Of a DNA stretch of 41,869 nucleotides, positions 30,977-33,426 are shown in pieces. The position numbers and the translations under genes were made by a program. Location: NCBI GenBank assembly GCA_013001285.1, contig JABDMU010000023.1, positions 1 to 41,869 on the forward strand, read 5' to 3'. Every line of letters starts with the position of its first letter. Positions within the stretch are counted from its first letter, which is position 1. Under the pieces are notes generated by a model. The model did no database searches. It was given only the letters and a program-made list of their open reading frames with translations, and had not been told where the DNA came from. Origin of the DNA: Flavobacteriaceae bacterium. GTDB taxonomy: Bacteria > Bacteroidota > Bacteroidia > Flavobacteriales > Flavobacteriaceae.

Positions 30977-32560
30977 TTACTTCGCTATATTTACAGCTCT
31001 AGTTTCTCTGATCACAGTAACTTTCACCTGACCCGGATAGGTCATATCTGTTTGGATCTTTTGCGAGATCTCAAAAGATAATTGTCCTGCTTTTTCATCA
31101 GAAACCTTTTCGCTTTCAACAATAACACGAAGCTCGCGTCCTGCTTGAATTGCATAAGCCTTTTTAACTCCTGAGAATCCGAAGGCAATATCTTCTAAGT
31201 CTTTTAAACGTTGTATATATGAGTCTAATACTTGACGACGTGCTCCTGGCCTTGCCCCTGAAATAGCATCGCAGACTTGAACAATTGGAGATAATAATGA
31301 GGTCATTTCAATTTCATCATGGTGAGCCCCAATTGCATTACATACTTCAGGTTTTTCACCATGTTTTTCAGCCCATTTCATACCAAGAATCGCATGTGGT
31401 GTTTCCATGTCAGATTCAGCATCTGGTACTTTTCCAATATCATGTAAAAGACCTGCTCTTTTGGCTAATTTCGGATTGATGCCTAATTCGGCAGCCATGA
31501 CGCCACATAATTTGGCAACTTCCCTTGAGTGTTGTAATAAATTCTGCCCATAAGACGATCTGTATTTCATACGGCCAATCACTTTTATTAATTCAGGATT
31601 AAGTCCGTGAATTCCTAAATCAATTACAGTACGTTTACCTACCTCAATGATCTCTTGATCGATCTGCTTGGTGGTTTTCTTAACGATCTCTTCGATACGT
31701 GCGGGATGAATACGGCCATCGGTTACCAATTTGTGAAGTGATAATCTTGCGATCTCTCTTCTTACAGGATCGAAACATGACAATATAATGGCTTCAGGCG
31801 TGTCATCAACAATGATCTCTACCCCTGTTGCAGATTCGATAGCCCGAATATTACGGCCTTCTCTACCAATAATTCGACCCTTGATATCGTCTGATTCTAT
31901 ATTGAATACTGACACACAATTATCAATGGCTTCTTCGGTTCCAACACGTTGAATGGTGTTTATGATTATTTTTTTTGCTTCTTGCTGAGCCGTCATTTTG
32001 GCCTCCTCCATTTTATCTTGAACATATGCCATGGCATCATTTTTAGCTTCTCCTTTTAAGGATTCAACTAATTGCTCTTTCGCATCTTCAGCCGAAAGTT
32101 GAGAAATTACCTCTAATTGCTGTACTTGACTTTTATGCAACTTATCAAGCTCCTGCTTTCGTTTATCAATAAATTCTAGTCGGTGATTATAGTCCTTGAC
32201 TTTTTCTTCAAGTTCTTGATTTGCCTTTTTATTTTTGGCGAGTTCCGAAGATATTTGAGATTCCTTGTCGCGCGCTCGTTTCTCAGATTCTGCTATTTTT
32301 TTGTCGCGACTCAGGATCACTTTCTCATGCTCCGATTTTAATTCAATAAATTTTTCTTTGGCTTGAAGAATTTTATCTTTTTTTATCGATTCGCCTTCAT
32401 GTTTGGCTTCTTTCAAAATTGAATTCGCCTCCTTTTTTGCAGATTTTATGAGCTTTGAAGCATTGTTCTTTTCAAGCATTTTAGCTATGATAAAGCCAAT
32501 GATCAATCCGAGAATTATTGCGCCAACACCAATTAAAATTGTGTTTGTATCCATGTTCAT
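30977..32560 (-). CDS. rny: Ribonuclease Y
   Basis: 527 residues, the usual RNase Y length. Order: N-terminal TM anchor at about 7-26 ([19 protein letters not shown]), long charged coiled coil (about 35-210), KH domain ([21 protein letters not shown]; core [13 protein letters not shown]), and HD domain with [13 protein letters not shown] and LLHDIGK metal motif. A membrane-bound endonuclease starting mRNA decay. Two close ATG codons (32560 and 32554); I keep the first. The 3' end of the 6S RNA is only about 18 nt upstream, leaving no room for a promoter between, so rny must be transcribed through the 6S gene or from a promoter inside it. Confidence 0.96.
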
Positions 32561-32577
32561 TTAGTTAATTATTGAAT

Positions 32578-32746
32578 AAAAAAAAGCCTACACTAGTTTT
32601 GGATTCTGTATAAACTCCTGAAAAACAGGTTTAGGGCTAACAAACTGGTCAAGGATCTGCTCAAAGGCAGCTTGCTTTTACAATCTAAACTCACCCTTTT
32701 TAAAGAAATAATGTTGAGTTTATCAAAAAAAATAACTAATGTAGGC
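32578..32746 (-). ncRNA. ssrS: 6S RNA (flavobacterial type)
   Basis: About 169 nt, transcribed from 32746 to 32578. The ends form a 13-bp closing stem (GCCTACATTAGTT at 32746-32734 with AACTAGTGTAGGC at 32598-32586, one G-U pair) followed by eight U. Inside is a large AU-rich bubble, an apical arm with CAAGCTGC / GCAG-(ATC)-CTTG around CTTTGA, and a 3'-side hairpin CCTG-TTTTT-CAGG, the layout of 6S RNA, which mimics an open promoter and sequesters housekeeping RNA polymerase. A promoter predicted independently places the start at about 32746, exactly the first base of the stem. It lies just after zapA, as ssrS does in proteobacteria. Rfam has a 6S-Flavo family; I could not run the search. Confidence 0.8.
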
Positions 32747-32752
32747 AGTAAC

Positions 32753-32783
32753 CTAATATATTTTAAAGAACTTAAGCACTCAA
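32753..32783 (-). promoter_or_regulatory. Promoter of the 6S RNA
   Basis: Minus-strand TTG (32783-32781, in the last codons of zapA), 20-nt spacer, TATATTAG (32760-32753; one base off TAnnTTTG). Seven nucleotides further is 32746, the first base of the closing stem. Confidence 0.55.
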
Positions 32784-33065
32784 GTGCTCTTTTAAAAGTT
32801 GATCTAAAGCCCGAAGCTTTTGATCGACCTCTTCATTCATATTATCTTTATCTATCACATTTTGCTCCGTTTGAGAGGCAAATTGTAAAGCACACATGGC
32901 CAGTACATCTTGTTTATCTCTAACGGAATAACTCTGCTCAAATTGTTTGATCATAGTGTCAATCTTTTGAGCTGCCTTACGTAATCCTTCTTCCTGACTT
33001 GGTTCTATCGTCAATGGATATACTCGGTTTGCTATAGATAGCTTTATTTTAAGCTTTTCTGACAT
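32772..33065 (-). CDS. zapA: Cell division protein ZapA
   Basis: 97-residue ZapA-family protein, which bundles FtsZ filaments at midcell. The N-terminal beta-beta-alpha head (LKIKLSIANRVYPLTIEPSQEEGLRKAAQKID, key part IANRVYPLTIEPSQEEGLRKA) and the C-terminal coiled coil (NEEVDQKLRALDQLLKEHL) match the family, and length is normal. It starts 15 nt after the coiled-coil protein gene at 33081, so they form one transcript. The 6S RNA promoter begins inside its last codons. Cytosolic. Confidence 0.92.
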   Translation of the reverse strand: MSEKLKIKLSIANRVYPLTIEPSQEEGLRKAAQKIDTMIKQFEQSYSVRDKQDVLAMCALQFASQTEQNVIDKDNMNEEVDQKLRALDQLLKEHLSA

Positions 33066-33080
33066 CTAATTTACAAAACA

Positions 33081-33371
33081 TTATTCAGATAATTGTCCAA
33101 TACAATGGTCAATGTCCCTAATTAATGCATTTATTTTAAGCTTCGTTTCCTTTTTGTTTTCGTCACTGCCAAGTAATGAATTTGCCATTTTGAGCGTGTT
33201 ATATTTTTCTTCCCATGATGAAATTATTTCATCTTGTTGAAGTAACCGTTCTTGAGTTCGTGCCAATTCATCACTTAGATTGGTGTTTGTTTGCTTCAAA
33301 ACTTCCAATTTATGCAGAACTTTACTTATTCTATTCTCTAAAGAATCTACAACAAACTCAATATTACTCAT
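33081..33371 (-). CDS. Small coiled-coil protein, ZapB-like
   Basis: 96 residues, nearly all helical with heptad-like spacing: VVDSLENRISKVLHKLEVLKQTNTNLSDELARTQERLLQQDEI (key part LENRISKVLHKLEVLKQTN). Size, coiled-coil character and direct coupling to zapA suggest a partner of ZapA analogous to ZapB of E. coli; homology is not provable from such sequence. Own strong promoter at 33396-33426 with a leader of about 18 nt. The C-terminal half (NSLLGSDENKKETKLKINALIRDIDHCIGQL) is probably a second helix pair. No signal or TM segment. Confidence 0.7.
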   Translation of the reverse strand: MSNIEFVVDSLENRISKVLHKLEVLKQTNTNLSDELARTQERLLQQDEIISSWEEKYNTLKMANSLLGSDENKKETKLKINALIRDIDHCIGQLSE

Positions 33372-33395: not shown

Positions 33396-33426
33396 CAAAG
33401 TTAACATACCTAAAAGAGAATTACAA
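33396..33426 (-). promoter_or_regulatory. Promoter of the ZapB-like - zapA operon
   Basis: Minus strand TTG (33426-33424), 20-nt spacer, TAACTTTG (33403-33396), a full match to the flavobacterial consensus. Start near 33389, leader about 18 nt. Confidence 0.65.

Follow-up and report, generated by a model that had tools for sequence, protein, structure and literature searches.

RESULTS

Identity and fold of the RNA between zapA and rny

The window (the whole stretch of DNA that was analyzed, 41,869 nucleotides [nt] of a Flavobacteriaceae contig) carried, on its minus strand, a 96-amino-acid (aa) open reading frame (ORF; positions 33081 to 33371), zapA (32772 to 33065; Pfam PF05164, E value of 2.5e-20), a 6S RNA gene (32578 to 32746) and, downstream of it, the RNase Y gene rny (30977 to 32560; TIGR03319, 643 bits). 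The 96-aa ORF ahead of zapA was zapB-like by position only and matched no Pfam family. An M23 peptidase gene (Pfam PF01551; 33549 to 35234 of the window) was divergent from the zapA unit, and its start was about 145 nt from the promoter box that we propose below.

The element between zapA and rny is a 6S RNA of the Flavo type. It spans 169 nt including the terminator U run, as judged by its fold, Rfam, and an extended model that we call R1. When the whole window was scanned with Rfam, the single family above threshold was 6S-Flavo (RF01685), whose core match at 32719 to 32612 scored 110.3 bits against a gathering score of 85 bits and spanned 108 of the 108 model positions (1 to 108). The 2.88-Mb assembly had one such match, so the gene is single copy. 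The canonical 6S model, RF00013 (gathering score, 46.4 bits), had no match in 32500 to 32850 up to an E value of 10. Thus, of the two covariance models named as a check in a preliminary description of this DNA, which had assigned the RNA to 6S from structure and place, 6S-Flavo found the gene and RF00013 did not.

The minus strand from 32746 to 32578 folded with a minimum free energy of -49.6 kcal/mol (z score of -5.3), and none of 200 dinucleotide shuffles was as stable. The fold consisted of a 13-bp closing stem, an inner stem, a central bubble, an apical arm, a small 3'-side hairpin, and a run of eight T residues, just as the preliminary description had drawn it for an RNA of about 169 nt ending in eight U. 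Specifically, the strands of closing stem P1 were GCCTACATTAGTT (5' strand, 32734 to 32746; placed by alignment covariation and a coordinate check) and AACTAGTGTAGGC (3' strand, 32586 to 32598), and the latter, together with the T8 run (32578 to 32585; coordinate check), reads as an intrinsic terminator. Inner stem P2 was assigned to 32716 to 32728 (5' strand) and 32604 to 32617 (3' strand) from the fold and the alignment. In the fold, the central bubble had its 5' strand at 32698 to 32715 and its 3' strand, with the small hairpin, at 32618 to 32632; by eye, conservation of this hairpin in the alignment looked weak. The preliminary description also stated that no protein gene fits the gap; in a program-made list, the only ORF of at least 40 aa that overlapped the 6S gene ran antisense to it, was 83 aa long, and began with TTG.

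By analogy with general 6S biology (as set out in the accessible part of PMC8876501), the mature RNA would act like other 6S RNAs: the bubble would mimic an open promoter and hold the housekeeping polymerase until pRNA synthesis frees it. We also looked at one candidate helix for the refolding that accompanies pRNA synthesis, ACUCA in the 5' bubble strand with UGAGU in the apical arm, which is not a defining sequence of the 6S family. It was rejected; 76.9% of its pairs were formed, as in shuffles, many pairs were broken, and there were no changes on both sides.

Distribution and covariation among relatives

Of 60 genomes from the family, 59 carried 6S-Flavo; the one without it was 80% complete. 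In a draw of 395 genomes from the phylum, 50 had a match, 9 of them outside the family. We fetched 105 loci, and nearly all of them had zapA before and rny after the 6S gene. The exceptions were L050 (contig end), L058 and L084 (small genomes in which no rny was matched), and L067 (6S elsewhere in the genome). In addition, 80 named rny relatives were kept, many of them marine Flavobacteriaceae (Psychroserpens and Winogradskyella are examples); the named loci counted below partly overlap the set of 96 Flavobacteriaceae loci used below and number 79 (without L275, which was cut) or 78 (also without L208, which was short).

Alignment A1 contained 102 of the 105 loci; L065, L067, and L099 were left out because the end pattern was not found or zapA was not adjoining. 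The complete rod had 45 pairs, with 92.7% of cells paired and a covariation score of 0.372 versus 0.191 for shuffled alignments, none of 500 of which reached it. Compensatory changes were seen in all six helices counted, and they, along with the Rfam score, bore out the proposed 6S identity. In the closing stem, for which compensatory changes had been suggested as a check, 11 of the 13 pairs showed changes on both sides over 100 distinct relatives.

The Rfam 6S-Flavo model pairs the apical arm only and is without the closing stem, terminator, and leader. Model R1, in which the closing stem is included, matched 50 of 295 genomes in a draw from the class, 39 of them outside the window's order, and in the draws used it found 6S in genomes of families where Rfam 6S-Flavo gave no match. 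In other classes of the phylum, RF00013 matched the gap after zapA at full length and below threshold in 5 of 18 loci (26 to 38 bits); the best match had 38.3 bits and an E value of 2e-4, and none was above threshold. Because these sub-threshold matches lay right after zapA, they tied 6S-Flavo to canonical 6S by position and supported the name. They also agreed with the parallel to proteobacterial ssrS that had been drawn earlier from the zapA-adjacent position, as did the preserved order of zapA, 6S, and rny.

Two further observations were made in these searches. By eye, many of loci L127 to L145, which are from other classes, had a 6S-like stretch after zapA with GGGAGC, GGAAG, and CCCAC motifs. 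Four loci of family f3 (L108 and L112 to L114) had the order zapA, boxA core (see below), a 6S-looking RNA (by eye), and rny; the RNA ended in a stem with GCGG followed by a T run. No Rfam match was obtained in these four loci at an E value of 1 or below, and R1 matched the sense strand weakly in two of them (L113, 31.3 bits; L114, 21.4 bits). The f3 RNA is possibly an undescribed branch of 6S.

Promoters at the locus

Flavobacterial σA promoters carry TAnnTTTG at -7, as reported in the accessible parts of PMC9723704 and PMC7366714. The preliminary description had proposed a promoter, TTG-N20-TATATTAG, that would make the first base of the closing stem the transcription start site. The sequence was present, with its -7 box at 32753 to 32760 on the minus strand, and it fit 5 of the 6 fixed -7 positions. 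However, the box was nearly absent in relatives. Among 96 Flavobacteriaceae loci (a set that omits the eight loci of sister family f2 and L067), a -7 box matching at least 5 of 6 positions was in register with the closing stem in 4, the window counted. Anywhere from -45 to -5 of the 6S gene, an exact box was found in 2 of the 96 and a box with at least 5 of 6 positions in 12, and the counts for a local box in the named loci were 0 of 79 (exact) and 3 of 79 (at least 5 of 6). In the same family, every SRP RNA gene had its own exact -7 box (26 of 26) and 20 of 25 RNase P RNA genes had their own; these counts omit one second SRP match and a second RNase P match. Since the SRP and RNase P RNA genes showed the expected box, the promoter test had power, and we did not accept the sequence at the stem as a promoter. 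What was conserved at that place was the boxA-like element described below.

The second RNase P RNA match, a partial one of 110.9 bits, came from the window's own assembly (L387; G000:C19:14394-14609). It may be contamination or a duplicated fragment.

A perfect box with the same spacing, TTG-N20-TAACTTTG, was located at 33426 to 33396, ahead of the 96-aa ORF (TTG at 33424 to 33426; -7 box at 33396 to 33403, minus strand). An exact box was present before the ORF preceding zapA, 600 to 760 nt (about 650 nt) upstream of 6S, in all 95 Flavobacteriaceae loci of the set used for distal-box and core positions, which omits L050 as well. The same was true of all 78 named loci (560 to 740 nt upstream) and of all 8 loci of sister family f2 (at about -640 to -690), and the background of exact -7 boxes was 0.022 per 100 nt. 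No conserved internal promoter was detected within zapA, exact boxes being rare between -600 and 0. Inside the 6S gene, an exact box was found in 12 of the 96 loci and was unconserved. As for a promoter of rny itself, an exact box between 6S and rny was present in 1 locus (95 loci with a 6S end, 92 with the rny start found). Because the only conserved exact box lies in the distal position and none is conserved before rny, the simplest reading would be one unit with one putative σA promoter, comprising the 96-aa ORF, zapA, boxA, 6S, and rny.

A boxA-like element at the zapA stop codon

The zapA stop codon was followed directly, at 32759 to 32771 on the minus strand, by the boxA-like element GTTCTTTAAAATA, whose first 11 bases fit GYTCTTTAANA with 0 mismatches. 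This is the boxA consensus published for gamma-proteobacteria, as given in the accessible part of PMC5725501. When the 96 leaders were compared with it, 27, 66, and 91 fit at up to 0, 1, and 2 mismatches, respectively, versus 0.1, 2.3, and 17.8 for shuffles and 0, 6, and 24 for the antisense strand. Of 1,425 control windows, taken from these loci and matched in length, 1% fit boxA at up to 1 mismatch. The box was also present in 71 of 79 named loci. The core of the element, which we defined as GTTCNTT or GTTCTTA after seeing the data (GYTCTTTAANA was not chosen in that way), lay within -12 to +13 of the zapA stop codon in 86 of 95 Flavobacteriaceae loci and at the stop codon of the preceding ORF in 6 of 95. 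The window's own genome had the 13-mer at up to 1 mismatch in 45 places compared to 22 for the reversed pattern, which is weak evidence by itself. The NusB gene was present.

In sister family f2, boxA was found in 0 of 8 loci at up to 2 mismatches, though the zapA-6S-rny order and the distal promoter box were kept. All eight f2 loci had a -7 box with 5 of 6 positions (TAGATTTT or TAATTTTT) 21 to 26 nt before the stem, and a local 6S promoter is possible in this family. Several f2 loci (L059 to L066) also had an inverted repeat resembling GGGAAA...TTTCCC over the zapA stop codon. Of 19 loci from other classes of the phylum, only 7 had the core.

Linked and relocated 6S genes in the rest of the class

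Forty further loci of the class were examined; 6S followed zapA in 32 and was elsewhere, with neither zapA nor rny nearby, in 8. This gave a natural comparison set. The core was within -12 to +13 of the zapA stop codon in 31 of the 32 linked loci and within 130 nt of the relocated 6S gene in 0 of 8 (Fisher's exact test, 1.2e-7; 9 versus 5 when counted by family), statistics that are computed on kin loci, which are not phylogenetically independent, with the relocated cases coming from five families and four of the eight from one. At up to 1 mismatch, the published consensus was matched in 16 of 32 linked and 0 of 8 relocated loci (P = 0.013). At up to 2 mismatches, the counts were 30 of 32 and 4 of 8 (shuffles, 6.5 and 1.7), and the matches of the relocated loci were in scattered places. 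The distribution of the promoter box was the reverse. An exact -7 box was found in 4 of 8 relocated genes versus 0 of 32 linked genes (P = 7.7e-4), and a box with at least 5 of 6 positions within -45 to -5 in 7 of 8 versus 9 of 32. In relocated locus L320, GTTCATCGACATATC came after an exact box at -80, which resembles the layout at rRNA genes; relocated locus L067 had neither boxA nor a promoter box.

We also compared zapA-rny gaps that lack 6S. The core was at the zapA stop codon in 0 of 13 such gaps, which were those of 16 class loci without 6S where zapA adjoins rny (L117, L118, and L119 were left out) and which were judged to be 6S free by Rfam and R1, with L111, L116, and L122 absent from one Rfam scan. 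Two of the 13 had a core farther off, at +18 and +58.

The distance from the box to the start of the 6S model varied from 14 to 117 nt across the class. In 30 of the 31 boxed linked loci, a spacer of 23 to 106 nt parted boxA from 6S. The 30 spacers (L321, with no box, and L326, with too short a spacer, were left out) folded better than shuffles, with a mean z score of -3.2 and 23 of 30 below -2. In family f64, the spacer hairpin had changes on both sides in 5 of 7 pairs, based on the 6 of 9 sequences in alignment A2 (the spacers of L301, L323, and L327 were not alignable). These findings suggest that the leader between boxA and 6S is itself present as RNA. A constant boxA-6S spacing after folding was considered and rejected, because the median of 16 unpaired nt was close to the mean of 14.9 nt for shuffled spacers.

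Other stable RNAs

Since no 16S rRNA match was found in the window's own assembly, rRNA leaders were taken from relatives. Of the 16 leaders listed, 14 had a GTTC-type box, which in most cases came some 50 nt after a -7 box. The rRNA boxA of Flavobacteriaceae mostly resembled GTTCAT(T/A)(A/G)ACATA and was 1 to 3 mismatches off the consensus; thus, the 6S box is a closer match to the general consensus than is the local rRNA box.

With a 9-base boxA pattern that was chosen after the data had been seen, 11 of 25 tmRNA loci had a match within 60 nt upstream versus 0.2 expected (L336, L337, L339, L341, L342, L343, L344, L346, L352, L355, and L359). The leader of one more tmRNA gene, L353, reads GTTCTTTACATA, which is outside the pattern. 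The same pattern was found in 0 of 26 SRP leaders and 0 of 25 RNase P leaders. rRNA and tmRNA are cut from precursors. The RNAs that start at their own promoter (SRP and RNase P) were without boxA, and rRNA, 6S, and part of the tmRNAs had it.

DISCUSSION

How do bacteria set the level of 6S RNA when no separate promoter is seen for the 6S gene? In the Flavobacteriaceae locus described here, we think it probable, on the basis of conservation across relatives, that 6S is the third product of the zapA unit, processed from a zapA transcript that a boxA-modified polymerase has made. Transcription would start at the putative σA promoter before the 96-aa ORF, a start site placed by conservation rather than by mapping. 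Ribosomes would leave the transcript at the zapA stop codon, and the nascent RNA would expose boxA exactly there. In Escherichia coli, boxA binds NusB and ribosomal protein S10 and turns RNA polymerase into its rRNA antitermination form. NusB-S10 bound to boxA in the zapA transcript may likewise shield the polymerase from Rho over the untranslated 6S stretch. In addition, boxA may keep hold of the 5' strand of the closing stem while the 3' strand has yet to emerge, similar to the tethering model for the 16S leader outlined in the part of PMC10250234 available to us. The closing stem and the U run would then terminate the RNA, with read-through feeding rny, and the 5' end of 6S would be cut out of the precursor.

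A wider version of this idea is more tentative, and we consider it somewhat less likely true than false. Here, the stable RNAs that Bacteroidota process from precursors (rRNA, 6S, and some of the tmRNAs) would share boxA-driven transcription. The boxA at the zapA stop codon would hand the polymerase from the trailing ribosome (via S10) to NusB-S10 and would tether the 6S 5' strand, and 6S output would track rRNA-type antitermination capacity and zapA expression.

An alternative is that the box serves the maturation of 6S (and tmRNA and rRNA) precursors, as a site of processing or of binding by, for example, an RNase, and has no role in antitermination. The precursor-cut rRNA and tmRNA carry the box fully or in part, it is missing from the two RNAs whose 5' end is at a promoter, and the gene that follows 6S encodes RNase Y, all of which is compatible with a processing site. 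However, the box fits the boxA consensus and resembles the rRNA leader box, and it is anchored to the zapA stop codon, with no constant spacing to the mature 5' end. We consider this alternative unlikely, and the two roles could coexist.

It is considerably more doubtful that this is an ordinary 6S gene with its own σA promoter at the closing stem, as the preliminary description had it. TTG-N20-TATATTAG does have the usual spacing, TATATTAGG occupies this position in locus L044, and f2 has its nearby box with 5 of 6 positions throughout. Against this, the in-register box is kept in so few relatives and is never exact in the named loci, whereas the SRP and RNase P RNA genes do have theirs. Moreover, the spacers that part boxA from 6S in the 30 linked class loci fold better than shuffles, with compensatory changes in one family, and a 6S promoter hardly agrees with this. 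Least probable of all is that the box belongs to an alternative-sigma or activator-dependent 6S promoter, since, even though no conserved σA box lies at 6S and flavobacteria have alternative-sigma motifs (SM4-6, in the accessible part of PMC9723704), a promoter would hardly tolerate a box-to-6S distance that ranges so widely across the class and a folded spacer with compensatory changes in one family.

If 6S does come from a boxA-modified zapA transcript, there are several consequences. 6S RNA brakes the housekeeping polymerase, and a boxA in the leader would couple that braking to the machinery of rRNA synthesis. The targets of Nus factors would extend to a regulatory RNA, and boxA would help to explain why zapA and 6S stay together. 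As a gene, it is a new addition to a family that has been described before. Its 6S identity is not new, and a Bacteroides 6S with pRNAs has already been published. The novelty is in the boxA-led arrangement without a local promoter, of which we found no description in the literature searched, a scope that left most subscription journals outside.

Several known systems can be set beside this locus. Compared to Rfam 6S-Flavo (RF01685; Weinberg et al. 2010, PMC2864571, accessible part), the sequence and apical structure are alike, and the RNA described here also has a closing stem, a terminator, and a leader. The Bacteroides thetaiotaomicron 6S, which, according to the available text of PMC7366714, was found by dRNA-seq and has evidence for pRNAs, is a 6S of the same phylum, and the likeness is drawn on the RNA alone, not on the locus or leader. 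In E. coli K-12 (NC_000913), ssrS likewise comes directly after zapA, but the gene downstream of ssrS is fau rather than rny, and there is no boxA between zapA and ssrS (the best window had 5 mismatches). With the boxA elements of rRNA and suhB (PMC5725501 and PMC10250234, accessible parts), the element shares the fit to GYTCTTTAANA and a position upstream of a structured RNA. The boxA targets named in those parts are rRNA, suhB, and other protein genes, and the genome search in PMC5725501, as described there, took in no non-coding RNAs; in the locus analyzed here, the box is at a stop codon ahead of 6S.
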